Source of the DNA: a virus
Direction: 5' to 3' (one strand)
DNA length: 52,078 nt
Virus record (IMG/VR): IMGVR_UViG_3300046318_000354
Span: 1 to 52,078 of that record
Positions 23,918 through 37,659 of the stretch are shown piece after piece. The notes beneath the pieces are model-generated. The model did no database searches, was not told the DNA's origin, and saw only the letters and a list, made by a program, of their open reading frames with translations. The number at the start of each line of letters is the position of its first letter. Position 1 is the first letter of the stretch. The translations under genes were made by a program, and so were the position numbers.

Positions 23918-24133
23918 TCATATAATATAATAATCCATCCCTACAAATTCATTCCATAGTGGGTGGTCGGCGTCTATTTCTTCTTGGTCAATTCTGCCAT
24001 CACCATCCATTAGTCTAACCCTTCTTATAGGATCAAAACTTGTGGGGTTATATATAAGATAACCAACATATACCACTTCCCTTCCCTCAAAGTATATCCT
24101 TTTTTTATTCGTTAGGAACTTAAACTCTCTCAT
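23918..24133 (-). CDS. FKFF-tag small protein, 71 aa
   Basis: Begins MREFKFLTNKK, a variant of the shared M-K-x-F-K-F-F leader of this arm. The body is beta-rich (GREVVYVGYLIYN) then acidic (DGDGRIDQEEIDADH). Not recognised otherwise. It is the last gene of a row of four tagged genes read leftward. Confidence 0.75.
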   Translation of the reverse strand: MREFKFLTNKKRIYFEGREVVYVGYLIYNPTSFDPIRRVRLMDGDGRIDQEEIDADHPLWNEFVGMDYYII

Positions 24134-24136
24134 ATC

Positions 24137-24469
24137 TTAAAACATTTCACTTGAACCACTTTGTCTTAAACGTTCAACTATATAATCAAGTTCCTCAATT
24201 TCCCTGGCATCGTGGAGTAATATATAGTTATTATATAGTCTACCGTATGAGTCGGTTCTATTTCTTACACAATAGTATTGAATGTTATCCCTGGTGAATG
24301 ATGTGTGATTATTATTGGTATATCGTGAATAAGGTAGATGACCCATCATATCATTACGACATTGAATGAATGTTCTAACCCTCGGGGTGATAAGTGCACG
24401 TCTGATGGTTATTTCAACAGGTGCCGGTATTGTTTCAATATCATCCCTAAAGAACTTAAACTGTTTCAT
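24137..24469 (-). CDS. FKFF-tag small protein, 110 aa
   Basis: Begins MKQFKFFRDDIET. After the leader the sequence is Arg/Asn rich (ALITPRVRTFIQCRNDMMG) with an acidic C-terminal helix (EIEELDYIVERL). Beyond the leader it shows no similarity to the adjacent tagged proteins that I can see. Overlaps the upstream gene by 14 bases. Confidence 0.75.
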   Translation of the reverse strand: MKQFKFFRDDIETIPAPVEITIRRALITPRVRTFIQCRNDMMGHLPYSRYTNNNHTSFTRDNIQYYCVRNRTDSYGRLYNNYILLHDAREIEELDYIVERLRQSGSSEMF

Positions 24470-24794
24470 ATCTTATTTCATTATACATATCCAAGGACAT
24501 CGTGATATGACGGGTCTCCACTCTATCTGGTTGGTTTAGATATATATGATATAGTTCATATTCAATAGTCACCGTTTCCATTAAAGGTAAATTATTATCA
24601 TTATGGGTTATGTTACTGATAATAATGGTTTTGTTCTCACCGACCATAGCAAAATGATATTGTTTCCCCACAGGACTTGTTTCATATCTTATTCTATTCA
24701 GAACAATATCATCGTAGTCATCATATCTAGATATGGTTGGAACCTCTTCAAGATAGTTCGGTTCGTTATTTGTTAAGAACTTAAATGTTTTCAT
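24456..24794 (-). CDS. FKFF-tag small protein, 112 aa
   Basis: Begins MKTFKFLTNNEPNYLEE, closest in this set to the T4 internal-protein leader pattern (MKTYxxF...E). The body is beta-rich (GKQYHFAMVGENKTIIISNI). Function unknown; part of the tagged row. Confidence 0.75.
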   Translation of the reverse strand: MKTFKFLTNNEPNYLEEVPTISRYDDYDDIVLNRIRYETSPVGKQYHFAMVGENKTIIISNITHNDNNLPLMETVTIEYELYHIYLNQPDRVETRHITMSLDMYNEIRYETV

Positions 24795-24797
24795 ATC

Positions 24798-25121
24798 TCA
24801 TCGTGTTATTTCAATCCTATTTACTAATTCACTTGTTACCCCTCTATATGTGTAACCTCTCACTCCTTCGTTCACCACAACTACCCTATAATCAATCTCA
24901 ATCATCTGAGGGATTATATAATCAATGGTTCTCCACATTAATATCCTCATAAAACCATTGATTGGAACATTCACATCTTCAAAAGAGGTATCATTATTTA
25001 TAATATCCTGATTATGTATTTGTTTATATCTTAGCACGTGTATCAATACTTCATCCATATGATAACACTGATACATATTCTCCACCAATTTGGGGTTCTG
25101 AAAGAACTTAAATGATTTCAT
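24798..25121 (-). CDS. FKFF-tag small protein, 107 aa
   Basis: Begins MKSFKFFQNPKLVENM. Helical and hydrophobic in the middle (GFMRILMWRTIDYIIPQMI), then beta-rich (YRVVVVNEGVRGYTYRG). Not recognised. Confidence 0.75.
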   Translation of the reverse strand: MKSFKFFQNPKLVENMYQCYHMDEVLIHVLRYKQIHNQDIINNDTSFEDVNVPINGFMRILMWRTIDYIIPQMIEIDYRVVVVNEGVRGYTYRGVTSELVNRIEITR

Positions 25122-25313
25122 TTAATCCTTATTATTTTTTGGTTTAATTCCAATAAAAAGAAAGAATAAAGAAAATGGTAAACCTAATATCATCCACACA
25201 TAAAAACTTACGAGTAATGATGAGTCTTGTTCTCTTGAAAATGATCCCGCACCGGATAATGCTAACACAAAAACAAATCCGGACCAATTTAATCTCTTAA
25301 TATAATTTTTCAT
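25122..25313 (-). CDS. Two-span membrane protein, 63 aa
   Basis: Two hydrophobic stretches (GFVFVLALSGAG; LVSFYVWMILGLPFSLFFLF) with basic ends (MKNYIKRLNW; KPKNNKD). A small inner-membrane protein of unknown role, in the same run as the tagged genes (zero- and one-base gaps). Confidence 0.7.
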   Translation of the reverse strand: MKNYIKRLNWSGFVFVLALSGAGSFSREQDSSLLVSFYVWMILGLPFSLFFLFIGIKPKNNKD

Positions 25314-25314
25314 A

Positions 25315-25638
25315 TTATTTATTCTCGTAAGTTAATGGTAAGTTATGTTCAATGCGTTCTTCATCTGTTGGTGTTCTTTCTTCATCACACATATAACAAC
25401 GCATTTTTGTAAAGAACTTTGGATGTGTATGTGTCGGTCTCCAATCGTGTTCACCTTCATTCAAACAATCCGCCTTTTGGGGGTAATGATTGTAGATGAT
25501 ACCTGTTGTATAAACAAATGTCTTTCCGCAATCATCACACGTTTGTTGATAGGTCTCATCTTCACTATATCCATAACCATCTGTGTGGTCAACTTCTTGT
25601 GATTCATCACAATAAGGACAATCCATATAATCTGCCAT
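25315..25638 (-). CDS. Zinc-ribbon protein, 107 aa
   Basis: CPYCDESQEV...CDDCGKTF forms a four-Cys zinc ribbon near the N-terminus. A second set, CLNEGEHDW...HTHPKFF...CYMC, looks like another metal site. The pairing is typical of small phage nucleic-acid-binding proteins. A TATATTTG box lies upstream on this strand (near 25660), so it may head the unit down to 23918. Confidence 0.75.
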   Translation of the reverse strand: MADYMDCPYCDESQEVDHTDGYGYSEDETYQQTCDDCGKTFVYTTGIIYNHYPQKADCLNEGEHDWRPTHTHPKFFTKMRCYMCDEERTPTDEERIEHNLPLTYENK

Positions 25639-25696
25639 AAATTTATTTGTTTTATATTACAAATATACAAAACTTATTTGGAATATCATTCAGTAT

Positions 25697-26029
25697 TTAT
25701 ACTAAATTTTTTATTATAATGGGTTCATCACAGTGTGGACAATCTTTAAGTACCAATAGATTATTCATATAGAAACTCCATTTGGATACCGTTGGAATCT
25801 CCTTATCTAATAGTTTCCTGAATCCATCTTGATTATCCACCTCACCGTATATGTCATAGTACTTACCTTTGTATCTGGTAATGATATGATTACCGTTTGT
25901 GTAGGGAATACATCCTTTATACATCTTGGATAGTAAGATATGAAACTTATAACATCCGCCCTTGGAATAGATATGGTGAATGTACATATCAGTTTGGTTT
26001 AATTCTTCAATGAAGTCAGATATTCCCAT
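25697..26029 (-). CDS. Conserved phage hypothetical, 110 aa
   Basis: GGCYKFHILLSKMYKGCIPYTN followed by GNHIITRYKGKYYDIYGEV is familiar from conserved phage proteins of unknown function. The C-terminus holds CPHC. It overlaps the upstream gene by 31 bases. Confidence 0.7.
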   Translation of the reverse strand: MGISDFIEELNQTDMYIHHIYSKGGCYKFHILLSKMYKGCIPYTNGNHIITRYKGKYYDIYGEVDNQDGFRKLLDKEIPTVSKWSFYMNNLLVLKDCPHCDEPIIIKNLV

Positions 26030-26178
26030 TTTACTATTTTAACGATTAAACCACATCCTGTAATTGAATCTCTCCATTCCGCACAATACGGATCTTGACA
26101 ATTACATCTAAAACAATATACCTTATCACCGTTGGAAGTTATTCCCTCGATATCCTTACCTTTAATTGGAAGTTCCAT
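25999..26178 (-). CDS. Small Cys-rich protein, 59 aa
   Basis: The start is set at ATG giving MELPIKGKDIEG, directly after the leader AAACAACAAGACA shared with two other genes here. A longer frame exists but would overlap the upstream gene further. Cys pattern YCFRCNCQDPYCAEW with a later GCG suggests a small metal-binding fold. Confidence 0.65.
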   Translation of the reverse strand: MELPIKGKDIEGITSNGDKVYCFRCNCQDPYCAEWRDSITGCGLIVKIVKWEYLTSLKN

Positions 26179-26446
26179 TGTCTTGTTGTTTATCTTTCCA
26201 CTCAAATAAATGCCAAACAAATGGTGATTCTTGGTATGTACCAATATAGATCATATTCGTTTCGTCAAAAGGTTCTCCTGTTCCCACTACAGCAAACCAC
26301 CTCGGTTCATCTTCCGCATTAGGATCAACCAACGCCCAGATCATTCCACGTTCTCTTTGCGATTGTACAGATAATATTTTTGCACCAATGGGCATTCTGA
26401 TGGAACCTTCTTTAATCTCAAATTTCCATATTTGTTTATTCTCCAT
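26162..26446 (-). CDS. DUF7352-like protein, 94 aa
   Basis: MENKQIWKFEI, then RMPIGAKILSVQSQRERGMIW and VDPNAEDEPRWFAVVGTGEPF fit a small phage family (DUF7352 as I recall it): short beta proteins with a GTGxP motif. The C-terminus KQQDNGTSN is encoded by the shared leader of the next gene. Start chosen after the AAACAACAAGACA leader. Confidence 0.7.
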   Translation of the reverse strand: MENKQIWKFEIKEGSIRMPIGAKILSVQSQRERGMIWALVDPNAEDEPRWFAVVGTGEPFDETNMIYIGTYQESPFVWHLFEWKDKQQDNGTSN

Positions 26447-26804
26447 TGTCTTGTTGTTTAGATGTTTCCTCAAAATTTTCTTCACAAAATGCATTAAGTG
26501 ACCCATCAATGTCTAATCTTCCTCCTCCCCAAAACCCGAGACTAAACCAACCATCGTTTTTGGTTCTAACATATATTAGTGTTCCACCACCTATTTCACC
26601 ATCATCTTCAGCTTTAACAAAATAGTCGGTAGTCTCTCTGAATAACCAATCACACACACTTACTTCCTTTTTCCATACGGATAAGGTTTCTTGGTCAATT
26701 TCGTTATATGGAATAATTTCTTTTATTACAACTTCACTCCTTCGACTAAGTCTAATCTTACCATCATTGAATGAGTAATATGTCTTATTTAGGATTGGTA
26801 TCAT
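26436..26804 (-). CDS. Hypothetical protein, 122 aa
   Basis: Start MIPILNKTYYSFNDG follows the shared AAACAACAAAACA leader. Beta-rich body (GGGTLIYVRTKNDGWFSLGF) and C-terminal KQQDNGE produced by the next leader. Not recognised. Confidence 0.7.
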   Translation of the reverse strand: MIPILNKTYYSFNDGKIRLSRRSEVVIKEIIPYNEIDQETLSVWKKEVSVCDWLFRETTDYFVKAEDDGEIGGGTLIYVRTKNDGWFSLGFWGGGRLDIDGSLNAFCEENFEETSKQQDNGE

Positions 26805-27003
26805 TGTTTTGTTGTTTAGATAGTACGAATATTTCACGTATTGCTTTACGATTAACTTCTTTCCAACGGTCCACGTTTTCTTTCAATAACTTCACATATT
26901 GTTTCACAATAAGAGGACAGTTTTTTAGTTCCTTTTCCGCTTCATCAACATCAAATTGATTTACTACCGGCATAAAAGGACCTTGTTGTTTTCTATTTCC
27001 CAT
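26785..27003 (-). CDS. Hypothetical helical protein, 72 aa
   Basis: Acidic/basic helices (FDVDEAEKELKNCPLIVKQY; LLKENVDRWKEVNRKAI) suggest a small coiled protein; the C-terminus SKQQNNDTNPK is again encoded by the next gene's leader. Not recognised. Confidence 0.7.
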   Translation of the reverse strand: MGNRKQQGPFMPVVNQFDVDEAEKELKNCPLIVKQYVKLLKENVDRWKEVNRKAIREIFVLSKQQNNDTNPK

Positions 27004-27202
27004 CTTTAAGGTGTTCTTTCATTTGTTGTAATAACTTGGATAATACATCCACCTCATCAAAGGTTAGATATAGTCTGGTCTCTCTGATTGAACCTGATAC
27101 TTCTTGTACACAAAGGACAACACCGTTATCAGTTTCGTTTGGTTGAACGATTGCAATCTGTTCGGTCTGTGTGTACATTCTTTGTTCGATGAATGGTTTC
27201 AT
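26993..27202 (-). CDS. Hypothetical protein, 69 aa
   Basis: Begins MKPFIEQRMYTQTEQ. The middle is a beta hairpin (GVVLCVQEVSGSIRETRLYL) and the end a helix (VDVLSKLLQQMKEHLKDGK). Not recognised. Overlaps the next gene by 11 bases. Confidence 0.7.
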   Translation of the reverse strand: MKPFIEQRMYTQTEQIAIVQPNETDNGVVLCVQEVSGSIRETRLYLTFDEVDVLSKLLQQMKEHLKDGK

Positions 27203-27209
27203 ATTATTT

Positions 27210-27464
27210 TTATTTATGGATGGGATTATTACAGTTACCTTTATGTGTTAATACCGAGGCGTTACCCCAAGGACCATAAAGATACTCACAACTATCTATT
27301 ATAACAACGGTTAATGGTATACTACTAAACTCCACCGGTATTCTCTTTGGTATATTTAACGAGTCGGCAAGAGTGGAATCAGTTGTTGATTCACTCGGAT
27401 ATCCGACATTCGGTTCAAAACAAGATGTTAATCCTAATGATAGAATAATTAAAAGTTTTTTCAT
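27210..27464 (-). CDS. Small lipoprotein, 84 aa
   Basis: MKKLLIILSLGLTSCFEPN is a lipoprotein signal (lipobox LTSC). A Ser/Thr linker follows. The end, VVIIDSCEYLYGPWGNASVLTHKGNCNNPIH, resembles the 'vdxCEY...THKGNCxNP' ending of a small phage-borne family. It would be anchored in the cell envelope. The permuted tRNA-like element lies just upstream. Confidence 0.75.
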   Translation of the reverse strand: MKKLLIILSLGLTSCFEPNVGYPSESTTDSTLADSLNIPKRIPVEFSSIPLTVVIIDSCEYLYGPWGNASVLTHKGNCNNPIHK

Positions 27465-27490
27465 ATCTCATTATCTTTAATATACAAATT

Positions 27491-27583
27491 AAATAATCAG
27501 AGTGCTTTATCCCTTTCCACTACCGGCCCATCCTCACCGGATAGACCAGGTGGGACTCGAACCCACATTCTCTCTAATTATTT
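27491..27583 (-). tRNA. Candidate circularly permuted tRNA-like gene
   Basis: Reading the minus strand, the T arm comes first (GTGGG-TTCGAGT-CCCAC, 27566-27550). Next is a hairpin CTGGTCTATCC-GGTGA-GGATGGGCCGG whose outer seven pairs make a tRNA acceptor stem (three G-U). Then comes TA, a D-arm-like GTGGAAAGGGATAAAGCAC, and finally CTCTGATTATTT. The last pairs with AAATAATTAGAG at the other end (12 positions, one G-U), where an anticodon stem would be. The order is therefore 3' half before 5' half, joined across the acceptor end. The anticodon loop would be where the ends lie, so no anticodon can be read. Alternatives are a tmRNA-like domain or a tRNA remnant. Confidence 0.6.
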
Positions 27584-27587
27584 TGTT

Positions 27588-27686
27588 GTCAGGACAGGAT
27601 TCGAACCTGTATAGTGCCTTTCACTTGGTTACTCTTGTCGAAAAGAGACTGAGTTCTTCAGTGCGATACCATTCCGCTCACCTGAC
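27588..27686 (-). tRNA. tRNA-like gene, type II, odd anticodon arm
   Basis: Acceptor GTCAGG/CCTGAC, T arm ACAGG-TTCGAAT-CCTGT and D region GCGGAATGGTATCGC resemble a leucine-type tRNA. The middle has ACTGA-AGAAC-TCAGT (5-base loop) and two extra hairpins (CTCTT-TTCGAC-AAGAG and AGTG...CACT), so the anticodon cannot be assigned. No CCA is encoded. It lies 4 bases from the permuted element. Confidence 0.55.
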
Positions 27687-27747
27687 TTCCATTCTAGTAA
27701 GGCATCTCACCTCATAGGCTGTTCATAAACTTAGCTTAAGTAGAGTA

Positions 27748-27842
27748 GTCAGGACAGGATTCGAACCTGTAGGATAGGGCTTACCAAGAGCGACTCTGAC
27801 TAACGTCCATTAACGTAATCGTTACCAATTCCGCCACCTGAC
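27748..27842 (-). tRNA. tRNA-like gene, type II, odd anticodon arm
   Basis: The acceptor and T arm are identical to the 27588 gene. D region GGCGGAATTGGTAACG is leucine-like. The middle reads ACGT-TAATGG-ACGT (6-base loop), then AGAG-TCG-CTCT. Anticodon uncertain (TAA or AAT would be guesses). No encoded CCA. Confidence 0.55.
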
Positions 27843-27848
27843 TATATT

Positions 27849-28070
27849 CTATTCAATATGTGAAAATATATTTCCTAAAAAAGTAACTTCGTCCCATCCA
27901 TTCATTTTATCATCGTGGATTAATTTAGTTAAATCTTCTTGAGGGTATTCATATTCTCTTGTAATATCTTCTGCGTAATAATGCCATCTATCATTAAAAT
28001 AAATGAATTTTGAAATACCATTAACTGTCTGACCAATATCATAAACATCACCATTGAACAATTTCATCAT
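27849..28070 (-). CDS. Small conserved hypothetical, 73 aa
   Basis: MMKLFNGDVYDIGQTVNGISKFIYFNDRWHYY and YEYPQEDLTKL resemble a small conserved phage protein ('DVYDIxQTVNG'). It sits between two tRNA-like genes and is probably on the same transcript. Function unknown. Confidence 0.7.
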   Translation of the reverse strand: MMKLFNGDVYDIGQTVNGISKFIYFNDRWHYYAEDITREYEYPQEDLTKLIHDDKMNGWDEVTFLGNIFSHIE

Positions 28071-28092
28071 AATTTTTATTTTTTTTTTAGTA

Positions 28093-28152
28093 GTCAGGAC
28101 AGGATTCGAACCTGTAATGCTACCTTATGCGTCTGCCATTCCGCCACCTGAC
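28093..28152 (-). tRNA. Short tRNA-like gene without an anticodon arm (60 nt)
   Basis: It has the same GTCAGG/CCTGAC acceptor and ACAGG-TTCGAAT-CCTGT T arm as its neighbours, and a leucine-like D region GGCGGAATGGCAGACGC. Only about 13 bases (ATAAGGTAGCATT) separate D and T arms, too few for an anticodon arm. It is either a deletion remnant or a deliberate tRNA mimic. Confidence 0.5.
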
Positions 28153-28157
28153 TATTT

Positions 28158-28352
28158 TTATAATTTTTGTTGTTTTAACCATACCCAATAAACGGATTCG
28201 TAATCCATAATACCAATATCGTGTGAAGGTAAATGTTCTTTTAAGATTGCTCGTTTTTCTTCAACAGATAATCTACCCCACCATCTAACAGATAATTCAC
28301 GGTCTGTTAATTGTACTCCAATGTCCGATTTGATATTAATTAAGTTTTCCAT
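28158..28352 (-). CDS. Hypothetical protein, 64 aa
   Basis: Begins MENLINIKSDIGVQL; a Trp-rich helical body (RWWGRLSVEEKRAILKEHL) and a basic end (VWLKQQKL). Not recognised. Lies between tRNA-like genes. Confidence 0.7.
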   Translation of the reverse strand: MENLINIKSDIGVQLTDRELSVRWWGRLSVEEKRAILKEHLPSHDIGIMDYESVYWVWLKQQKL

Positions 28353-28376
28353 AACATTTATTGTTTAACTGTTCGT

Positions 28377-28493
28377 AATCAGGGTGGGATTCGAACCCAC
28401 AATAGTACCATACTCGCTTCGGATGCCTCCTACTACAACGGATTCGAACCGTATCTCCCGTGCCCGGGCGCTTTACCAATTTGCCACCTGATT
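28377..28493 (-). tRNA. tRNA-like gene with two T arms (117 nt)
   Basis: Acceptor AATCAGG/CCTGATT closes the element. It has a D region GGCAAATTGGTAAAGC and a terminal T arm GTGGG-TTCGAAT-CCCAC. A second T arm (ACGG-TTCGAAT-CCGT) and a TAGTA...TACTA arm lie between. The anticodon region CCCG-GGCA-CGGG has a 4-base loop. It reads like a tRNA with another tRNA's 3' part inserted. No CCA encoded. Confidence 0.5.
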
Positions 28494-28504
28494 ATGTTCT
28501 TTAA

Positions 28505-28672
28505 AATAAGGGGACTAGTTCACTTTCATTTCACCCCTTTGTATGGAACTTTTTAATTATTTTATATCCACTTACCATCTTTACACCTGACAAACTATGG
28601 ATGGTGTTTTATTATACTCCCTTTGACAAGAGTTCAGGATTTTCATCGGTCCTATATCATTTCATACCGATT
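28505..28672 (-). ncRNA. Candidate leader RNA ahead of the tRNA-like cluster
   Basis: Downstream of the 28679 promoter lies a gene-free transcript with stems ATCGGT/ACCGAT and CCATC/GATGG. It ends in AAGGGG...CCCCTT followed by ATTTT, like an attenuator. It could be a small RNA or a leader that controls readthrough into the tRNA-like genes. Confidence 0.45.
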
Positions 28673-28678
28673 ACAATA

Positions 28679-28709
28679 CAAATGTAAGAATAATTTTTTA
28701 TATCACAAA
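28679..28709 (-). promoter_or_regulatory. Promoter of the tRNA-like cluster
   Basis: On the minus strand TTTG (28709-28706), 19-base spacer and TACATTTG (28686-28679) match the Bacteroidota consensus. Confidence 0.8.
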
Positions 28710-28725
28710 ATATTCTAAAAATTAT

Positions 28726-29085
28726 TTATTCTCGAGGGTTCAAGGTTTGATTATAAACACTTAACTCCGATAACAATTCCTCTATACTCTGTTCATTAAT
28801 CAAATACTCGTGTTCGTTATCTGTTATCACCGTTCCATATATATTGGTCGACATATTCTCAAAACTAATCTGATGGTATCTCCTTACCTCATCATATCTA
28901 GTTATGGTCCCGTCGGCAATCCATCCTATAGTCGTGTCACTAATATGCATAATGGCGTTGTGTTCATCACCACCTTCAGGAAGATTCAACATATAGATGT
29001 ACGCGTTCCTTATCCTTCTATTATAATTCAATAGTTGGGTGAGGGTCTGATCATCATTCTTCTGAAAAAATTTAAACTTCCTCAC
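28726..29085 (-). CDS. FKFF-tag small protein, 119 aa
   Basis: Begins MRKFKFFQKNDDQTL from a GTG start; GTG is supported because it places the tag at the N-terminus as in the siblings. Body of mixed type with an acidic C-terminal helix (EQSI-EELLSELSVY). It overlaps the upstream tagged gene by 14 bases. Confidence 0.7.
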   Translation of the reverse strand: MRKFKFFQKNDDQTLTQLLNYNRRIRNAYIYMLNLPEGGDEHNAIMHISDTTIGWIADGTITRYDEVRRYHQISFENMSTNIYGTVITDNEHEYLINEQSIEELLSELSVYNQTLNPRE

Positions 29086-29299
29086 GTCTTCTGTTTAATT
29101 CATTTTGGAAAACCATAATCCATTCCCTATTGGTTAATCCTTCATATGGATTCGGTATGGTTGTGTGTCCTGTACCAATAAGACAACACTGTATGTTCTG
29201 AATGTGTCTGGTGGTTAAATCTTTAATCTCCACCTCCGCACCATTCGACTTTCTCCACACAGTCGGGGGTTTCTTCTGAAAAAACTTAAATGATTTCAT
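29072..29299 (-). CDS. FKFF-tag small protein, 75 aa
   Basis: Begins MKSFKFFQKKPPTVW. Otherwise unrecognised; contains LTTRHIQNIQCCLIGTGH and a basic end (NRRREEV). Overlaps both neighbours by 14 bases. Confidence 0.75.
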   Translation of the reverse strand: MKSFKFFQKKPPTVWRKSNGAEVEIKDLTTRHIQNIQCCLIGTGHTTIPNPYEGLTNREWIMVFQNELNRRREEV

Positions 29300-29648
29300 A
29301 ATATATTATTCTAACAGGAAAATCAAAACTAATTTGGTCCATATATATTCTATCATCTTCATAGAAAGTTACACCATTGTTCACCATTGCTTCAATTGAT
29401 AGGATAACAGGTATTCCTAATCTATTCGTAAAGAATTCCTCCATTGTTCCTTCATATTCTCTTTGTATCCATTCATCACTAAAAGCGTGAGTACCTCTCA
29501 CCCAAGCAATTACTTTTACATATAACATATCACGATTGCCACCATCATCCCAATAACTAACTATTTGTTCGTTTTCTAATAGTGGAACCCGAGTTGGTTC
29601 TAGTGTCGGTTGACAATCTCCATTAAAGAATTTAAATGGTTTTATCAT
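29286..29648 (-). CDS. FKFF-tag small protein, 120 aa
   Basis: Begins MIKPFKFFNGDCQPTLEP. The body alternates beta strands (DMLYVKVIAWVRGT; VILSIEAMV) and ends in ISFDFPVRIIYYEII. Function unknown. Part of the tagged run. Confidence 0.75.
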   Translation of the reverse strand: MIKPFKFFNGDCQPTLEPTRVPLLENEQIVSYWDDGGNRDMLYVKVIAWVRGTHAFSDEWIQREYEGTMEEFFTNRLGIPVILSIEAMVNNGVTFYEDDRIYMDQISFDFPVRIIYYEII

Positions 29649-29651
29649 AAT

Positions 29652-29966
29652 TTAATATAAATCTTCCGAGAATAATGTTATCTTTTCCTCTTTTATTTGT
29701 CCAGATTTGAATGCAATGATTGCACCTTCCTCTCTATCAACAAATCTATTATCACTTGTTAGAAACCCTTGGACGTTTTCACCCGATTCCGCATCTCTTA
29801 AACCCGTTATCGCCACCTTTTGATATAAACAATTAGGATGTCTCCAACCACAAAACACAATACCTTTATCAACATTATACGGACGAAACCCTCTCAGTTC
29901 TAATACCTCAGGCTTAAGTAGTGGTAATTCTTTGTACCATATCGCAGCACATAATATTGTTATCAT
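29652..29966 (-). CDS. Conserved phage hypothetical 'ICAAIWY...QGFLTS..RFV.R', 104 aa
   Basis: ITILCAAIWYKELPL, GIVFCGWRHPNCLYQ, VQGFLTSDNRFVDREEGAIIA and a closing LFSEDLY match a protein pattern common in many phages. No activity is known to me. It lacks the FKFF tag, but its start overlaps by 4 bases a gene that ends in the tag. Confidence 0.8.
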   Translation of the reverse strand: MITILCAAIWYKELPLLKPEVLELRGFRPYNVDKGIVFCGWRHPNCLYQKVAITGLRDAESGENVQGFLTSDNRFVDREEGAIIAFKSGQIKEEKITLFSEDLY

Positions 29967-30148
29967 CCCTTAAAAAATTTAAAGTCATTTAAATCTTTCT
30001 TTACCGGTACCTCAACTGTGTCCGTACGCATATATTCTCTAATGGCATCTTCAATTGTTTGTTCCACATCATTGTCGGTAAACATATTATGAAAAGTGTT
30101 TCTCACATATTCATAAATCATTTCGGTATAGTTATGTTCTTCTCTCAT
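29963..30148 (-). CDS. Small acidic protein ending in FKFF tag, 61 aa
   Basis: Acidic helical body (HNYTEMIYEYVRNTFHNM; DVEQTIEDAIREYMR). It closes with DLNDFKFFKG, so the shared motif is here at the C-terminus, directly next to the start of the following gene. Either the motif works at both ends or this is a fusion/shuffling product. Confidence 0.75.
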   Translation of the reverse strand: MREEHNYTEMIYEYVRNTFHNMFTDNDVEQTIEDAIREYMRTDTVEVPVKKDLNDFKFFKG

Positions 30149-30151
30149 ATT

Positions 30152-30463
30152 CTAAATTGCTTCACAGTCATATGACATTTCTTCTTCCACTTCCTCAATC
30201 ATTGGTTGATTCTCCAACTCTTCAATGACTATGTTTATAGCTTCAGGATAATGACTGTGACCTTGGCTGAAATATATTCCGGCAAGTCCTAACACTTCAT
30301 TATCAATGTAGTGACGATTCTTTCCTTTACCTCTTAGTATCTCGTGATCCATAGATACATCGTTCCAATCATCTAGAACACATTTGTGTCCACCTTTGTC
30401 TTTGTACATTAGTCTAACGATATTGTTATGACTAAATTTCTCGATAAATTCCCCTAGTTTCAT
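30152..30463 (-). CDS. Hypothetical acidic protein, 103 aa
   Basis: Begins MKLGEFIEKFSHNNIVRLMY; body with HKCVLDDWNDVSMDHEILRG and a very acidic C-terminus (EEVEEEMSYDCEAI). Not recognised. Confidence 0.7.
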   Translation of the reverse strand: MKLGEFIEKFSHNNIVRLMYKDKGGHKCVLDDWNDVSMDHEILRGKGKNRHYIDNEVLGLAGIYFSQGHSHYPEAINIVIEELENQPMIEEVEEEMSYDCEAI

Positions 30464-30961: not shown

Positions 30962-31189
30962 TTATTTCTTTCTCCAATCAAATGGTTCGGGAGCTTTGGC
31001 TGCGGTTGCGGATATTTCCTCATCCATAGTCTTTGTTAGAACGGCAACATAAGAGTTACCTCTTTGTCTGGTTAATAAGGTATCAACCTCTTCCTCAGTA
31101 TAGGATGGTTCAAGTTCCAACTCACCGTGTTTCCAAGATTTCCATATCTCAAAATCCTTTAACTGTTCTATTGTAATGTAGTTTTTCAT
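30962..31189 (-). CDS. Hypothetical protein, 75 aa
   Basis: Start MKNYITIEQLKDFEIWKSW is chosen over a longer frame. Acidic helices (LELEPSYTEEEVDTLL) and a basic end (EPFDWRKK). Not recognised. Confidence 0.65.
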   Translation of the reverse strand: MKNYITIEQLKDFEIWKSWKHGELELEPSYTEEEVDTLLTRQRGNSYVAVLTKTMDEEISATAAKAPEPFDWRKK

Positions 31190-31314
31190 TTTCTTATTTA
31201 TTTTTAAATCTAAAATATATTGAATACCCAAACAATCGAATGCCTTGATATCCGTTTCTTCTTGAGAATAAACAATCCTCTAATCTCTTTACACTAAAGA
31301 AAAATAATCTATTG
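31190..31314. other. Short gap with a start-less coding-like fragment
   Basis: On the minus strand the frame of the 31189 gene stays open upstream through SQEETDIKAFDCLGIQYILD back to a TAG, with no start of its own except inside it. It may be a gene remnant or a 5' extension of the next gene. Confidence 0.35.
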
Positions 31315-31644
31315 TTAATTTCCATATCTAAATCTTACCCATTCGATTGTCATTAAATCATTTAATATATCAAACCCCCAACCATCTTCATATTGTGCAA
31401 CGTCATTATGTATTCTACCGTTGGGACCTGTGATTGATAATATAGTCACAATAAATCCATCTGGAAATTGATTTAGAAACGGATGGATACCATAACTATA
31501 TTCGGTAAGGACATCGTATTCATATTGGTCTAAGTTCTCTATTCTCCCATATATCCACGACGCACCACTCCTTTCATCTTCCGCAAGTATAGATTCTGTA
31601 AAATCTTCCTGATTATTTTGTAGAAATTTAAAACTTCTTACCAT
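31315..31644 (-). CDS. FKFF-tag small protein, 109 aa
   Basis: Begins MVRSFKFLQNNQEDFTESI. The body contains FIVTILSITGPNGRI and WGFDILNDLMTIEWVRF. Otherwise unrecognised. It overlaps the next tagged gene by 7 bases. Confidence 0.75.
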   Translation of the reverse strand: MVRSFKFLQNNQEDFTESILAEDERSGASWIYGRIENLDQYEYDVLTEYSYGIHPFLNQFPDGFIVTILSITGPNGRIHNDVAQYEDGWGFDILNDLMTIEWVRFRYGN

Positions 31645-32111
31645 ACGTTTAATATTTTACTAATCATTAAACCAAAACAAATTGTCAGCGAAGTTGCAAG
31701 AAAGATAACACCGAAGATATCTTGATTAGTTTGAACGTACAATTTCATCTCTTGAAAAAACATCTTAATCTTCATCCACCACTTTGGATTTACTTTTGTT
31801 ACTCTTGTTGTTTGAAATAATTTAATTTGATTACTTCTTTCCCTTTCAAATGATTCGTGTCTACGTCTTAAAATTTCTTCTTGAGATATCAAACTATTAA
31901 ATCTTCTCATAATTCTGTCTTGACGTTCTTGATCTTCAATACGTTGTCTAGTGAGTCCATCATATAAATCTCGATTAGTGTGATATAACATTCTTCTACC
32001 CATATAACCTTCGGGCGTGTCGGAGTTAAACGATGCGGTTGCTCGAGTCTCACCATCTAAGACATCTAAACTTCCTTTAACTTCCTTCTGAAAAAATTTA
32101 AACTCTTTCAT
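31638..32111 (-). CDS. FKFF-tag membrane protein, 157 aa
   Basis: Begins MKEFKFFQKEVKGSL. A long Arg/Glu-rich helical segment (LTRQRIEDQERQDRIMRRFN; EILRRRHESFERERSNQI) is followed by one C-terminal membrane span (DIFGVIFLATSLTICFGLMI). It is the largest tagged protein. A tagged, membrane-inserting, coiled protein would fit an injected or host-membrane factor, but that is inference. Confidence 0.75.
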   Translation of the reverse strand: MKEFKFFQKEVKGSLDVLDGETRATASFNSDTPEGYMGRRMLYHTNRDLYDGLTRQRIEDQERQDRIMRRFNSLISQEEILRRRHESFERERSNQIKLFQTTRVTKVNPKWWMKIKMFFQEMKLYVQTNQDIFGVIFLATSLTICFGLMISKILNVW

Positions 32112-32112
32112 A

Positions 32113-32460
32113 TTAAAATTTCTTTATTGCGTAATGAAGTTTGAATAAAAACTTATATAACCATTGCGGGTTTCTATAATGAAAGTGGCTATTCTTTCTT
32201 TTAGGATATGACCAATGATAACCAACCATCTGTTCAAATGAAAACTTCTTCCATCTCCATTTCATTTCCTCACGAAATGACATCATATAAATTTCACACA
32301 TCAATTCATTATCATTATCGTAGTAGTCTTCATAATTGATTGTCTTAAAATAGAAAAGAGTATTTCCCATTTTACATAAACCAGAAAGATGAAGATCGTA
32401 ATGACTGCTCACCCAAACAAAGTTTACTTCGTCATATGGTATGGTTGTTATAAGTTTCAT
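32113..32460 (-). CDS. Hypothetical protein, 115 aa
   Basis: Aromatic and basic (YDEVNFVWVSSHYDLHLSGL; MKWRWKKFSFEQMVGYHW; FLFKLHYAIKKF). Not recognised; the acidic and basic runs suggest a soluble globular protein. Confidence 0.7.
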   Translation of the reverse strand: MKLITTIPYDEVNFVWVSSHYDLHLSGLCKMGNTLFYFKTINYEDYYDNDNELMCEIYMMSFREEMKWRWKKFSFEQMVGYHWSYPKRKNSHFHYRNPQWLYKFLFKLHYAIKKF

Positions 32461-32461
32461 T

Positions 32462-32626
32462 TTAATAATTTTTAATTAGTCCAAATAAAAAACTAATTTG
32501 TATCTTCCAACCTTGTCCCCATTCTAGATAAAGTAAACATTCTTGTCCATTGATTTCTAATAACGAAAACCAATTCCTGTTGTTTGCTTTGATGAAGACA
32601 TCAAATAGTTCAACCCTTAGTCTCAT
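32462..32626 (-). CDS. Small protein, 54 aa
   Basis: Begins MRLRVELFDVFIKANN; ends in a hydrophobic, basic segment (WKIQISFLFGLIKNY). One base separates it from the next gene. Not recognised. Confidence 0.6.
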   Translation of the reverse strand: MRLRVELFDVFIKANNRNWFSLLEINGQECLLYLEWGQGWKIQISFLFGLIKNY

Positions 32627-32635
32627 AATATTATT

Positions 32636-33109
32636 TTATTTTAATTGATTTCTTACGGTCATAACTGCAAACCCTAATAGATTCAATCCTCTCCATAATG
32701 ACGGTGAATTGACATCATCATTTTCATCTCCCAATTTAATTCCCCAAATGAAATCATAAGGTGAAGCCTCAACAATTACTCTATCACCTGTCGCAATAAG
32801 TTCTTCTTTCAACTCAGGGTTCTGTGTGAATTTAGCAAGATTTCCTTGATAAACAATTGAAAAACAATGTTGGTCCCAAATAGTTCTATCAAATCCTTTC
32901 ACTAATTTACCTAACGCTTTTTGTTCCGCTGGAACCTCAGTCGCTAAAATTTGATTGGCCACATTCTCGTCACCAAATAACAATGCCTTTTTATACATCA
33001 TATATTGTTCACAAGAACTAAACTTAACACCATCAATCTGAAATGATGACCTGTACCATTGGGAGTAAATCCCATTGTAAAAAAATACGTGTTTATTTGT
33101 TATTTTCAT
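32636..33109 (-). CDS. NADAR-domain protein (YbiA-like), 157 aa
   Basis: FFYNGIYSQWYRSSFQIDG, then CEQYMMYKKALLFGD (conserved Glu), FDRTIWDQHCF and VEASPYDFIWGIKL are the hallmarks of NADAR/YbiA-like N-glycosidases. The family is linked to NAD and ADP-ribose metabolism; members cleave N-glycosidic bonds, including ADP-ribosyl-guanine on DNA in reported cases. It overlaps the macro-domain gene by 4 bases, so the two are probably made together. Confidence 0.9.
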   Translation of the reverse strand: MKITNKHVFFYNGIYSQWYRSSFQIDGVKFSSCEQYMMYKKALLFGDENVANQILATEVPAEQKALGKLVKGFDRTIWDQHCFSIVYQGNLAKFTQNPELKEELIATGDRVIVEASPYDFIWGIKLGDENDDVNSPSLWRGLNLLGFAVMTVRNQLK

Positions 33110-33630
33110 TTTTTAAAAATTACAACTGTAACATCACAGTCTTTTAATTCTGTTTGGATAATTTCTTTAATTCGATTCCAATCACCACCAGCAAGTCCCG
33201 CACCAATCTGAGGAAGACCAATGCGTTTACCTTTGAACGTATGGTTAATTTTTCTCATACACATAGTAAGTGCTTCATAATCAAGTGGTTTAGAAACACC
33301 ATCAGTATGATTGGTACCATATTTGTATTGGGTGTACGAATTAACAACAACTAATTCGTGAGTAGCCCATTTACCTCCCTCATCGGGATATGATGTCCAT
33401 CTTTTTTGGTCCTCATACCATTTTGTTTGATAATCAATTGTCCCAAGTTTATTGATATCTCCGCGATATTCGTTCCCCTCCATCTTGAAATCATTGCAAC
33501 CAAACTCATTGGCCATCTGAGGTGCAATTCCTGCCCCCATTTGACATAGACAGTTACATCCGTGTGTAATCACATCAAACATTCCTTCTCTTGCGAGTGT
33601 AATTAAATTACCTTCAACTTCATTATACAT
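33106..33630 (-). CDS. Macro-domain protein, 174 aa
   Basis: Residues about 14-45 (AREGMFDVITHGCNCLCQMG-AGIA) and the later GLPQIGAGLAGGDWNRI form the two ADP-ribose-binding loops of a macro domain of the TARG1/Poa1-like type. Such proteins bind or hydrolyse ADP-ribose derivatives, including ADP-ribose on proteins and nucleic acids. Its start overlaps the PRPP-synthetase-like stop by one base, and NADAR follows. Confidence 0.9.
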   Translation of the reverse strand: MYNEVEGNLITLAREGMFDVITHGCNCLCQMGAGIAPQMANEFGCNDFKMEGNEYRGDINKLGTIDYQTKWYEDQKRWTSYPDEGGKWATHELVVVNSYTQYKYGTNHTDGVSKPLDYEALTMCMRKINHTFKGKRIGLPQIGAGLAGGDWNRIKEIIQTELKDCDVTVVIFKK

Positions 33631-34487
33631 TAGAATACATTTAATTGTTTAACGTTTGTTTTCTCTTCATATTCATCATCGGCAACATCTCTATAACTGT
33701 TCGTACAAAATGTACCATCGATATATTCATTCAACGTTTTAAATCCCGCACTGAAGATACCGTGAGTAACTACTAAGTATACTTTAGCGGTTGGTCTATT
33801 TTCTTTGATAACTTTAGCCAACTCAACAAAAGTCCTACCACCGTCACAAATGTCATCAACGATAACATAAATCAAATCTTTATGTTGGTCAAGTACAGGA
33901 ATCTCGGTACGTAGAATATTTCCCGTTACCATATCTCTTACTTTTGTTGCTGTAATAATATTTTTGATGTCGAACTTCTTCGCCACATCATAAACTTTTT
34001 TATATGCACCCGCATCAGGTGAAACCAAAACAACTTTATCTTCCTCATTATCCACAATAAGATATGATAATGCGTCGTCAACTAAATCAAAGTTGTTAAC
34101 TTTATTAAAGTTGTTCAAACAAGCTTCCAACACATCACTGTGTGGGTCTATAACAGTTACAGATGCGAAATTTTGACTGTTGATAATAGGACAAATAACT
34201 TGTTTCAAATAGTTTATTCCACCATTTTGAAACTTTCTATCACTACGTGAACCTAAAAAATATGGAACATACAAATGAATTCGTGCAGGACTAAGAATTT
34301 TCAATGCTTGATTTGCACATATGATAATTTCAAGGTCCTTAAAGTTATTAAGACGTGATTTAATCATTACAACTTTATCTAATAATCCATTATAATTTAT
34401 AATGTCGACTGTCTGTTGACCATCAGGGAATGACGATATCTTGTATTTTATATCTGATTTCTCCGGATTAACTAAATTTAATACCAT
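33630..34487 (-). CDS. PRPP-synthetase-like enzyme, candidate ADPR-pyrophosphate synthetase (Adps), 285 aa
   Basis: Has the ribose-phosphate pyrophosphokinase layout: SSFPDGQQTVDI near the N-terminus, a YVPYFLGSRSDRKF loop (YARQDRK equivalent), DPHSD, and the PRPP-loop VIVDDICDGGRTF. At 285 aa it is a little shorter than housekeeping Prs. Beside a NAMPT-like gene, phage Prs-like enzymes have been shown in the NARP1 pathway to pyrophosphorylate ADP-ribose rather than ribose-5-phosphate. That specificity is inferred here from context and not visible in the sequence. Confidence 0.85.
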   Translation of the reverse strand: MVLNLVNPEKSDIKYKISSFPDGQQTVDIINYNGLLDKVVMIKSRLNNFKDLEIIICANQALKILSPARIHLYVPYFLGSRSDRKFQNGGINYLKQVICPIINSQNFASVTVIDPHSDVLEACLNNFNKVNNFDLVDDALSYLIVDNEEDKVVLVSPDAGAYKKVYDVAKKFDIKNIITATKVRDMVTGNILRTEIPVLDQHKDLIYVIVDDICDGGRTFVELAKVIKENRPTAKVYLVVTHGIFSAGFKTLNEYIDGTFCTNSYRDVADDEYEEKTNVKQLNVF

Positions 34488-34491
34488 TTGA

Positions 34492-34833
34492 TTATTTTTT
34501 TAAGTTTTTATACATCTCTTTTATTTTAGTATTTGATTTAGACCATACTGGTACTCGACCAACACCACTAATATAATAGTTAGATAGTAGGACCATTCTT
34601 GTTTTGGCGATAAATCTATGATCCTTGATTATTTTTGTTAGTTCAACAAAATCATCGTCAAAATCATACTCAGGTGAAATAATAGAATTATCGAACGGAT
34701 TTAGTGAAAATTTTTTATGTGATTTAATGTAATCATCAACTAAATCATCTTTAATGAATTTACCATACACCATATTTGAGGTTATTTCTGGAATCACTAT
34801 AACCATTACTAATATAATTAAAATTGTGCCCAT
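34492..34833 (-). CDS. Membrane-anchored hypothetical protein, 113 aa
   Basis: A hydrophobic N-terminus (MGTILIILVMVIVIPEI) forms a signal anchor; the rest is soluble (DYDFDDDFVELTKII, then a basic end). It lies between the NAMPT-like and Prs-like genes with 2-4 base gaps. Not recognised. Confidence 0.7.
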   Translation of the reverse strand: MGTILIILVMVIVIPEITSNMVYGKFIKDDLVDDYIKSHKKFSLNPFDNSIISPEYDFDDDFVELTKIIKDHRFIAKTRMVLLSNYYISGVGRVPVWSKSNTKIKEMYKNLKK

Positions 34834-34835
34834 AA

Positions 34836-35315
34836 TTAATCCCAGCTAGTTGAAGATGAAGAATCGCTACTATCATAACTCGAAGACGAATCATAAGAAC
34901 TGTCATTAGATGAATAGTCCGAAGAACTAGAACTACTGTCGTCCCAAGAGCCACCCGCACCACCACCAGAAAAATCACCACCACCAAATCCATCGTGGAA
35001 ATTATCTGACTTAATATCAGAATCATTTAATGAATCACCAATCATCGCACCGGCCAAGTTACCTCCGACTAATGTTCCCATCAATGTGGAGTCTGTTGCT
35101 TGTGCAACTAACATAGAGGTTAAGAAATCATCATTATCATCATTTCTTTGTGGTGTGTGTGTATTAAATGTACGTTTTGACACAGAATCCACTTTCACTT
35201 TCACCTCAAATTTATTTTTTGATATTGGTGACGGTGGTATGTGTTTAAAATCTGGAATGGTATTTTTATTTTCCGATTCTTTAATACCGAATAATCTTTT
35301 AATGAAGTTAAACAT
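34836..35315 (-). CDS. Gly/Ser-rich tail protein, 159 aa
   Basis: A basic start (MFNFIKRLFGIKESE), a mid-part with ALa/Gly hydrophobic stretch (LMGTLVGGNLAGAMIGD), then GFGGGDFSGGGAGGSWDD and about 35 residues of almost only Ser, Asp and Tyr. The tail resembles the low-complexity ends of TPM/YgcG-type membrane proteins. Not recognised otherwise. Sits inside the NAD operon. Confidence 0.7.
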   Translation of the reverse strand: MFNFIKRLFGIKESENKNTIPDFKHIPPSPISKNKFEVKVKVDSVSKRTFNTHTPQRNDDNDDFLTSMLVAQATDSTLMGTLVGGNLAGAMIGDSLNDSDIKSDNFHDGFGGGDFSGGGAGGSWDDSSSSSSDYSSNDSSYDSSSSYDSSDSSSSTSWD

Positions 35316-35319
35316 AATG

Positions 35320-36780
35320 TTATTTTTTTAAACGTTCTCTAATTTCTGTTAATGTTGTTTGATTGTGGTACTCACCATCTTTGTAAATGGTTTTAAGTAA
35401 TCCTTTCCATTCCAAATCCCAACTAACTTTATCGTTGAGAGTAATGTTACCAAGTGAATCTTTAGATACACATAATAATCCTGTTGCCGATTTCTTTGTG
35501 CCATCATCTGTGATTGGATCCTTAAAGATTTCACGACCAACACCTTCTAATTCAACATAAGTGGCTTTCATTGCAAAACCAAACGTATCTCTAGTGTTGA
35601 ATTGGTATGTGAATGAACCGACTCCTAATACAACGTTGGTTGATGCAAATCCTTTTGATTCTAATTTTGAACAGATTTCTTCAGCTCTATCAATTGTAAT
35701 TGAATCTCCATAGATTGCTCCGATGTGTGAGTCAAGAACTTTATAACCTTGTTCGTTAACTGTTCCACCAAAAACATCCCAAAGTAATTCGATAACTCCT
35801 TTTTGTTCTGGAGTACCTTGCCAATCTCTATCGATTTCATCTCTCGTTCCACATATAATATCAACGGGGTCACCCGAGTCAGGACGAATAACTAACTTAC
35901 CATCACGAGCAAGAATTTCTTCTTTCAATGTAACGACGTGTTCAGTACATACTTTCCATAAGTTCCAAGTATCTGATACAACTGATAAAATACCTGTTGG
36001 ATATGTTTCCAATAATCTACGGAATGTACCAACTTCATCATCGGCACCACCTGCACACATTACTGAGTGTTCAGTGGCATTAACACTACCACCAACAAAA
36101 CCTTCTTCACCATAGAACTTTCTTGCTCCGTGAATTGTTGGTAATGAATCGGTACCACTAAACGATGTTAAGTGACCAAGGCCAGAACTGATTACAGCTT
36201 CAACTGAATCCATACCTCTCATTGAGAAGTCGTGTCCTTGCCAATCAATGAACCAACCTTTCTCCGCGTCGGTCTTCTCTTGCCATTTAGTCAACACCTT
36301 ACGATATTGATGAGCAATAGTTGCTGATGTCATCGGTTTCCATAACAAGTTAGAAAGGATTGTCTCCAAGTAATTTGTTACCCAATAGAAATCAGGATGT
36401 GTATTGTATATTGTTAACACTGGTACTTTCATTGGAACCAATGTTCCTTCTTCGATACCTTTAACGTGAATTGGTAAGTAACCAAGGTCGTGTAATTTTT
36501 CGAAGTGAGTAACATCATAATCGGTACCTAAGTACATTGATAACTCACGTTTCATTTCACCACAAACTTCATCTTTTGGTTTAGAGAAGAATTCATTTTT
36601 GAATGCTTCGTGGATTTGAACCATAACCATTTGTTGACCAAATGAAACAACCTGTTCACAACCTTTCGGTGCGTACTTGTTACTTCTTGGTGTGAAGTTT
36701 GAATAAACTAAATTCGTACCAGGAGGGTACATTTGGTGGTGTGATGTTTTATAACCATCGGTTAATAATAGTGGATTCAT
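35320..36780 (-). CDS. Nicotinamide phosphoribosyltransferase-like enzyme (NadV/Namat-like), 486 aa
   Basis: Full-length NAMPT: MNPLLLTDGYKTSHHQMYPPGT, SNFTPRSNK, FIDWQGHDFSMRGM, SGTDS-PTIHGARKFY, SVVSDTWNLWK, VIRPDSGDPVDI and GVGSFTYQFNTRDTFGFAMK. NAMPT makes NMN from nicotinamide and PRPP. In the phage NARP1 pathway the homologue joins nicotinamide to ADPR-pyrophosphate to give NAD+ directly. Which of the two applies cannot be read from the sequence, but the neighbouring Prs-like, macro and NADAR genes favour the NAD+-repair role. Confidence 0.92.
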   Translation of the reverse strand: MNPLLLTDGYKTSHHQMYPPGTNLVYSNFTPRSNKYAPKGCEQVVSFGQQMVMVQIHEAFKNEFFSKPKDEVCGEMKRELSMYLGTDYDVTHFEKLHDLGYLPIHVKGIEEGTLVPMKVPVLTIYNTHPDFYWVTNYLETILSNLLWKPMTSATIAHQYRKVLTKWQEKTDAEKGWFIDWQGHDFSMRGMDSVEAVISSGLGHLTSFSGTDSLPTIHGARKFYGEEGFVGGSVNATEHSVMCAGGADDEVGTFRRLLETYPTGILSVVSDTWNLWKVCTEHVVTLKEEILARDGKLVIRPDSGDPVDIICGTRDEIDRDWQGTPEQKGVIELLWDVFGGTVNEQGYKVLDSHIGAIYGDSITIDRAEEICSKLESKGFASTNVVLGVGSFTYQFNTRDTFGFAMKATYVELEGVGREIFKDPITDDGTKKSATGLLCVSKDSLGNITLNDKVSWDLEWKGLLKTIYKDGEYHNQTTLTEIRERLKK

Positions 36781-36785
36781 AATTT

Positions 36786-36959
36786 TTATATTAAGTTATT
36801 ATATTTTAGTATGTAAATGATTGAAAGGACGACCCCACCAATCCCCAATAATCTTGCAAAGAATTTACTTAAACCATTTCCACCATTAACATTTGCAACA
36901 GTGAAGAAAAGTGATAATGGTAATGTTACAATTGCCAATAGTAATCCGATAGTTTCCAT
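36786..36959 (-). CDS. Small two-span membrane protein, 57 aa
   Basis: METIGLLLAIVTLPLSLFF and LLGIGGVVLSIIYIL are two hydrophobic segments with a Gly/Asn loop between. Too short to be noticed by length filters but in a gene-sized gap with start and stop fitting both neighbours. Function unknown. Confidence 0.7.
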   Translation of the reverse strand: METIGLLLAIVTLPLSLFFTVANVNGGNGLSKFFARLLGIGGVVLSIIYILKYNNLI

Positions 36960-36960
36960 A

Positions 36961-37218
36961 TTATTTTTGTTTTATTGAATTTAATATCTGTCTAATCTCA
37001 ACAACGATTTCTTCGAATGATTGAGTTTTATTTGTTCTTTGTTCTCCTTCGGTATTTCCGTTTTTGAATTTAACATAACCATACCAATAAGGACTTGAAA
37101 TTCCCGAATTGTTAAAATATATACCGACGTTGGTAATGCAATTAGTTTGAAATGGGTCTAAAATTACCGATATATTTCTCGCCTCTTCTTCGGGTAAATT
37201 AAAATCTAATTGGTTCAT
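36961..37218 (-). CDS. Hypothetical protein, 85 aa
   Basis: Begins MNQLDFNLPEEEARNISVIL; mixed beta/coil (GISSPYWYGYVKFKNGNTEG) and a helical end (EEIVVEIRQILNSIKQK). Not recognised. Confidence 0.7.
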   Translation of the reverse strand: MNQLDFNLPEEEARNISVILDPFQTNCITNVGIYFNNSGISSPYWYGYVKFKNGNTEGEQRTNKTQSFEEIVVEIRQILNSIKQK

Positions 37219-37219
37219 A

Positions 37220-37417
37220 TTATTTATCGTTTATTTCTTCAATTGAATCAATGATTAATCTATCCGATGGGTACTGAGCGACTAACTCAAACTTAACTTC
37301 AGTCACTTTCTTATGAAACCTAGTTACACAAGTACTATCAGGATTAATCGAATCGGCAATAACCTCAATTGATTTGGTTTCGGAACCGATAATTAAATAA
37401 CCAGAGTATCTTTTCAT
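37220..37417 (-). CDS. Hypothetical protein, 65 aa
   Basis: Beta-rich small protein (YSGYLIIGSETKSIEVIADS; KVTEVKFELVAQYPSDRLII). Not recognised. One base separates it from the following gene. Confidence 0.7.
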   Translation of the reverse strand: MKRYSGYLIIGSETKSIEVIADSINPDSTCVTRFHKKVTEVKFELVAQYPSDRLIIDSIEEINDK

Positions 37418-37434
37418 TTTATTTATTTTTAAAT

Positions 37435-37659
37435 TTATATTCGATTTAGTTGTCTACCTGCCGCGGATGGTGTGGACAAATAATCCTTATAACTCATAGC
37501 AATAGTGAATCCAGTTTCCTGGATTAAGAATTCAAAATGATTAAAACACATCTTCGTTACGATACAGTAATAACCTTTAAAAATAAATGACGAACCAATA
37601 TCTAATCGACACTTATCTTTATATGGATTTCGTTGGAAGAACTTAAAAGGTTGCATCAT
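37435..37659 (-). CDS. FKFF-tag small protein, 74 aa
   Basis: Begins MMQPFKFFQRNPYKDKC, the rightmost tagged gene. The body is beta-rich (GSSFIFKGYYCIVTKMCF) and ends SAAGRQLNRI. It lies far from the other tagged genes, so the tag is not just local duplication. It overlaps the upstream gene by 4 bases. Confidence 0.75.
   Translation of the reverse strand: MMQPFKFFQRNPYKDKCRLDIGSSFIFKGYYCIVTKMCFNHFEFLIQETGFTIAMSYKDYLSTPSAAGRQLNRI

Follow-up and report, generated by a model that had tools for sequence, protein, structure and literature searches.

Why do small proteins that otherwise differ begin with the same peptide in one stretch of viral DNA? The question is raised by IMG/VR record IMGVR_UViG_3300046318_000354, a genome fragment of 52 kb that we refer to as the window. 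An earlier note had listed ten genes in it that share an N-terminal peptide, and all ten are present as minus-strand open reading frames (ORFs) with the N-terminus M(K/R/xx)xFKF(F/L) (Table 1). We refer to this peptide as the FKFF tag, and to the remainder of each protein as its body. Because the window comprises the full record, relatives were sought in other contigs. We propose, with moderate confidence, that the tag is a motif by which the proteins dock, in the cytoplasm, to one common partner, and that the variable bodies are interchangeable modules.

The FKFF tag and the selection acting on it

The N-terminal motif is found in 10 of the 125 window genes, whereas residue-shuffled proteins yield 0.03 matches on average and never more than 2 across 2000 trials. 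With a weight matrix built from all tags, eleven window genes score 15.5-21.5 bits, and the next terminus and the best internal site reach 5.2 and 6.1 bits, respectively. Shuffling and the separation of the scores rule out a chance origin. The eleventh gene, absent from the earlier list, has the tag at its C-terminus (...LNDFKFFKG; 29963-30148 in Table 1). With the first 16 residues removed, the ten N-tagged proteins form ten separate BLAST clusters, in line with the earlier statement that the rest of each protein differs.

A scan of IMG/VR for M(K/R)xFKFFQ(K/N) returned nine contigs, all nine of them tag-bearing. Two further patterns and the NAMPT gene were used to find additional contigs, and the pattern scans in total yielded approximately 20 related contigs from T4-like jumbo phages, several of them longer than 100 kb. 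The largest relative, G002 (335 kb), is T4-like, and encodes a gp23-type major capsid protein (124971-126746) and an S77 (gp21-type) prohead protease (122913-123596; match at 123018-123485, E 5e-21). Its tags are clustered at 3.7-17.5 kb, with more copies near 303 kb and 323 kb. The wider search for tagged genes and a prohead protease that the earlier note had suggested thus recovered both, the latter in G002. In contrast to the tag-rich contigs of IMG/VR, 257 Gb of GTDB genomes gave only 19 isolated single matches to the strict DNA pattern. The tag is specific to one lineage of T4-like jumbo phages.

The survey set comprises 31 regions with 1075 genes; genes were called with a simple longest-ORF script and the related contigs are non-independent samples, and the counts are indicative. 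It contains 157 N-tagged and 15 C-tagged proteins, two proteins being tagged at both ends. F[KR]F[FL] has a density of 1.6e-2 at N-termini and of 2.0e-3 at C-termini, compared to 4.1e-5 in the protein interior, corresponding to enrichments over the interior of about 390-fold and 48-fold. The tagged proteins form approximately 50 sequence clusters; the first 90 of them, without their first 16 residues, form 31. Of the 162 proteins in families with at least three members, 138 have the strict motif and most others a near-variant (FNFFRG, FKLLNG, FVFFRG, FTFFVG, FIFFHG, YKFFHG and FRMFRG). Because these variants preserve the hydrophobic pattern, the core of the tag is F-x-[FLM]-[FL]-x-G, usually xFKFFxG.

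We compared codons in 773 homologous pairs with a mean body identity of 53%. Phenylalanine is retained in 88.6% of cases in the tag (97% if F, L, Y, M and I are all accepted) and in 61.8% in the body, whereas synonymous differences between phenylalanine codons are equally frequent (29% in the tag, 31% in the body). Since the tag residues are conserved far better at the same synonymous divergence, selection acts on the tag peptide and not on the DNA, in line with the earlier note, in which the peptide rather than the DNA was described as conserved. Within the tag, the codon pairs AAG-TTC and AAA-TTT are linked, with an odds ratio of 14 (p=2e-10) compared to 1.07 in the background, which suggests that the tag copies in part share a common origin or have been exchanged, rather than having evolved independently. 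Longer tag modules, for example KG-Y-x-Y-[ST]-DE-[YF]-T, precede several unrelated bodies. Together with the codon-pair linkage, these modules indicate that exchange or copying of tag DNA has occurred as well.

Display of the tag and nature of the bodies

In AlphaFold2 models of two window proteins the tag lies outside the folded body, with predicted local distance difference test (pLDDT) values of 41 and 52, compared to 84-92 for the bodies, and the tag is thus predicted to be disordered. In all ten C-tagged proteins with a membrane helix, the helix is N-terminal. Conversely, in all 14 N-tagged proteins with a hydrophobic stretch (eleven clear helices and three weak ones), the stretch lies towards the C-terminus. 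In nearly all membrane-anchored tagged proteins, the flank of the helix towards the tag is richer in lysine and arginine, so that the positive-inside rule predicts a cytoplasmic tag. The position of the tag opposite the helix makes little sense unless the peptide has to be displayed at a free cytoplasmic end.

Most bodies match nothing in homology searches, and PADLOC returned only weak matches. For the 37435 family (families are named here after a window coordinate) a generic small SH3-like barrel is predicted; a fold search with two tagged bodies gave no significant match, including none in the PDB for this family. The body of the 29072 family occurs untagged in Vibrio phages, which indicates that the tag was appended. 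Several families resemble ribosome modulation factor (RMF, PF04957; best E 7e-4), and are termed RMF-like only, as the best score of 20.0 bits lies below the Pfam gathering cut-off of 27.9.

Other bodies resemble virion proteins. One tagged family, represented in ten contigs, consists of a piece of the gp23 capsid protein that stands on its own. Its G002 member (L113 2925-3215) matches PF07068 positions 135-194 (E 1.6e-13), and shares 57% identity over 47 residues with the capsid protein of its own genome (E 2.5e-15). In the A3 family, a segment between tag and body aligns to T4 gp23 residues 91-132; the best four members match the capsid-protein model with E 6e-7 to 2e-4, and no reversed control scored below 0.2. 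Tagged proteins of 70-160 residues hold segments of only 40-60 residues, and not a complete HK97-fold capsid protein. This A3 linker resembles the most conserved region of T4 gp23. In T4 that region includes Gol, which binds EF-Tu and activates Lit (PMC3014915), whereas the A3 linker, recognized by sequence similarity, stands apart from a capsid protein, within a small tagged protein. The SGRTIAQDL part of the capsid-like linker of A3 recurs in tagged proteins with a different body (L153 6801 and L148 7986), which suggests that this segment is shuffled too. A double-tagged protein of 60 residues includes part of a tail fibre, as judged by its match to a PHROG tail-fibre family (E 5e-7).

The small tagged genes for capsid and tail-fibre segments adjoin glycosyltransferase-like genes in approximately ten contigs (L113 2925-3215; L119 2459-3203; L131 6151-6895). 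Between them lies a tagged DETP-family protein, which has an untagged paralogue as its neighbour (L119 3184, MAKSRKKIKEDTL...).

Docking, packaging and other explanations

The tag has the properties of a short linear motif: it is concentrated at protein ends, its peptide is conserved while synonymous change is free, and it is disordered outside the body in the two models. Its docking nature is well supported. For the common partner and the roles of the bodies we infer the following. Carried on the free cytoplasmic end of dozens of small, fast-evolving accessory proteins, the tag would act as a docking handle that brings all of them to one putative partner, which may be a phage-encoded hub or a host machine. 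The bodies would be interchangeable modules that each engage a different target: RMF-like bodies would be directed at ribosome-type targets, those copying capsid or tail-fibre protein at sensors or binders of these proteins, and anchored members at the inner membrane. With a sliding-clamp-type peptide in mind, the ends of the G002 genes at 172-226 kb, which include replication and transcription genes, were inspected, and no FKFF-like end was seen.

Several points weigh against the docking explanation. The common partner is deduced from the shared peptide. The functions proposed for the bodies derive from few matches (capsid-protein fragments, a tail-fibre fragment and RMF-like domains). Part of the tag conservation is due to recent common descent or exchange of tag DNA, as seen from the codon-pair linkage. 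Finally, the tag sets were defined by a regular expression, which makes strict-motif frequencies partly circular, a circularity that the family-based test on 773 pairs lessens.

The earlier note had proposed a capsid-targeting or other sorting tag, by analogy with phage T4. The internal proteins of T4 are diverse small defence proteins that have only the N-terminal capsid-targeting sequence (CTS) in common (PMC3012670), which is removed by the prohead protease (PMC5694885). The FKFF set follows the same logic of a constant address on a variable payload: as in IPI, IPII, IPIII and Alt, a short constant N-terminal peptide is carried by small, highly diverse accessory proteins. In addition, the T4 CTS start quoted in the earlier note, MKxYxxF, loosely resembles MKxFKFF, and the tagged phages resemble T4 in having a gp23-type capsid protein and, in G002, the S77 prohead protease. 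However, the FKFF tag is not the T4 CTS. It is not a strictly N-terminal propeptide, given the 15 C-terminal copies and the two double-tagged proteins, it occurs on membrane proteins, and it marks about 50 families instead of a few. Moreover, the (L/I)xE prohead-protease site is not found behind the tag: sites of the type [LIVF][LIVAT]xE lie near the N-terminus of 7% of tagged proteins, below the 13% background of other genes. The targeting or docking part of the proposal therefore stands (the tag is terminal, under selection as a peptide, attached to unrelated bodies and located in a disordered tail), whereas membership of the T4-type CTS is rejected, because of the missing cleavage site, the C-terminal copies and the membrane proteins.

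The same genomes hold a separate, CTS-like N-terminal class that does end in a prohead-protease-like site, MKLxDI[IL]xE (MKL[LM]DI[IL]xE) together with KIxITExQxxxLIxE. Such sites are found in 67% of the MKLxD class. It is located in G002 (L098-L100) at 15550-22311 and 41170-48676, and in the window at 44297-44530 and 49415-49639; several MKLxD proteins also have a common (K)xIxxALxxGxx segment. Judged by their N-termini, the proteins of this class appear to be better candidates for capsid targeting than those with the FKFF tag.

The main rival to the docking explanation is virion packaging, in which an uncleaved N- or C-terminal cargo tag would load proteins into the prohead, to be injected with the DNA. 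Encapsulins take up cargo by short terminal peptides, and thus offer a precedent for a short terminal address on unrelated cargo; their peptides are unrelated in sequence to the tag, and the FKFF set, unlike encapsulin cargo, includes membrane-anchored proteins. The head proteins of the giant phages SPN3US and phiKZ also have common N-terminal targeting sequences, and gp53 and gp54 have identical N-termini on otherwise diverged proteins (PMC5694885). These propeptides are mostly long and are cut at AxE/SxE-type sites (PMC5694885), whereas the FKFF tag has 7-9 residues, no site and sometimes a C-terminal position. Packaging would fit the T4-like nature of the phages, with their gp23-type capsid protein and S77 protease, and the second tagged cluster, with capsid-protein and tail-fibre fragments, which is set apart from the main cluster and located amid glycosyltransferase genes. 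Against it stand the low frequency of protease sites behind the tag compared to the MKLxDI[IL]xE class, the C-terminal copies, and the approximately twenty membrane-anchored members with the tag on the predicted cytoplasmic side. The tag is also found on none of the large virion proteins of G002. We consider packaging possible, but rather unlikely.

More tentatively still, we speculate that the proteins work as 'bait and handle', with bodies that imitate or bind host-relevant ligands and an FKFF end that delivers the catch to a shared sink or hub. The baits may be the capsid-protein segments, the tail-fibre segment and the ribosome-binding module, and the catch may be, for example, host sensors that recognize phage structural proteins.

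A stability or quality-control tag, with a hydrophobic end that recruits a host or phage protease or chaperone, so that host proteins bound to baits are destroyed or the accessory proteins are short-lived, seems improbable. AAA+ proteases typically recognize unstructured, hydrophobic-basic peptides at protein ends, and such a role is compatible with either terminus and with cytoplasmic display. However, F-x-F-F-x-G is conserved more tightly than typical degrons, and some 50 families of self-degrading proteins would be odd unless the bodies are baits.

Whole-protein paralogy, which the earlier note had named as part of what would refute its proposal, is very improbable. The proteins would then all belong to a single fast-evolving family and have diverged until nothing but the first strand was recognizable, and some families indeed have longer N-terminal modules in common across different bodies (e.g. 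GYTYSDEYT). The bodies, however, fall into separate clusters and different types (helical RMF-like domains, a capsid-protein helix, a tail-fibre repeat, SH3-like barrels and membrane anchors), and the tag is disordered and outside any fold in the models, and is also found C-terminally. Least probable of all is a DNA or RNA element (a translation-initiation operator, recombination site or promoter) that encodes the peptide incidentally: gene overlaps in which the upstream gene stops within the TTTAAR of the tag DNA, the linked codon pairs and the recurrence of extended modules ahead of different bodies would agree with it, but it is ruled out by the C-terminal copies of the same peptide, by their agreement with membrane topology, and by synonymous divergence at background level while the amino acids are conserved.

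The window locus and its wider meaning

Adjacent tagged genes in the window overlap by 14 nt (24456-24469, 29072-29085 and 29286-29299) or 7 nt (31638-31644). In the 14-nt overlaps the upstream stop codon lies within TTTAAR of the following tag, as for the gene at 24456, and relatives have proteins ending in ...NETI before the stop. This arrangement would permit swapping of genes as cassettes.

Table 1. Tagged genes and NAD+-related genes of the window.
Feature	Coordinates	Strand	Remarks
N-tagged small protein MREFKFLTNK..., 71 aa	23918..24133	-	tag 16.6 bits; no relatives found among the tagged set
N-tagged MKQFKFFRDD..., 110 aa	24137..24469	-	diverged A3-family member, without the capsid-protein-like linker of other members
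N-tagged MKTFKFLTNN..., 112 aa	24456..24794	-	ORF
N-tagged MKSFKFFQNP..., 107 aa	24798..25121	-	homologues L098 14250, L115 12616
N-tagged MRKFKFFQKND..., 119 aa	28726..29085	-	GTG start
N-tagged MKSFKFFQKKP..., 75 aa	29072..29299	-	body homologue without tag in Vibrio phage phiKT1024
N-tagged MIKPFKFFNGD..., 120 aa	29286..29648	-	ORF
C-tagged ...LNDFKFFKG, 61 aa	29963..30148	-	ORF and weight-matrix score
N-tagged MVRSFKFLQNN..., 109 aa	31315..31644	-	family in 10 contigs; predicted beta-rich domain, tag disordered (pLDDT 41)
N-tagged tail-anchored membrane protein MKEFKFFQKEV..., 157 aa	31638..32111	-	family in 13 contigs, the most widespread of those with a tag; membrane helix near residue 131
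N-tagged MMQPFKFFQRN..., 74 aa	37435..37659	-	predicted small SH3-like barrel, low-confidence tag
NADAR	32636-33109	-	NAD+ salvage/ADP-ribose set
Weak macro-domain-like protein	33106-33630	-	NAD+ salvage/ADP-ribose set
PRPP-synthetase-like	33630-34487	-	NAD+ salvage/ADP-ribose set
NAMPT	35320-36780	-	NAD+ salvage/ADP-ribose set

Two untagged neighbours (43253-43822 and 43863-44243, minus strand) are conserved in 11-12 tag-bearing contigs; one has no Pfam match and one is similar to the DnaA C-terminal domain. They are possible candidate partners linked to the tag. The NAD+ salvage/ADP-ribose gene set (32636-36780, minus strand) resembles phage NAD+ reconstitution pathways. An IS605-family TnpB-like protein, with OrfB_IS605 and Cas12f1-like TNB domains (21818-23155, minus strand), adjoins the tagged cluster.

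Searches of cultured phages with five tagged families, and with the capsid-fragment family, found no tagged relatives; the matches to the capsid-fragment family are mostly annotated capsid proteins. They include Flavobacterium, Microcystis and Synechococcus phages, which makes a Bacteroidota host plausible. A match in Pantoea PA1 was discarded, as it reads as an unrelated frame. A literature search for 'FKFF' returned nothing relevant.

Judging from sequence, approximately 50 protein clusters in uncultured jumbo phages probably have a common partner or destination in the infected cell. Neither a packaging nor an adaptor reading would have led one to expect small tagged proteins that copy parts of the capsid and tail-fibre proteins. 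Bacterial defences sense capsid proteins (PMC9712102), and the bait-and-handle arrangement, if true, would provide the whole lineage with an adaptor platform to counter host immunity. Should the tag serve as a packaging address, the tagged set would list injected host-takeover proteins; should it serve as an adaptor handle, it would represent a new kind of phage organisation. Identification of the FKFF binder would account for much phage 'dark matter' at once.

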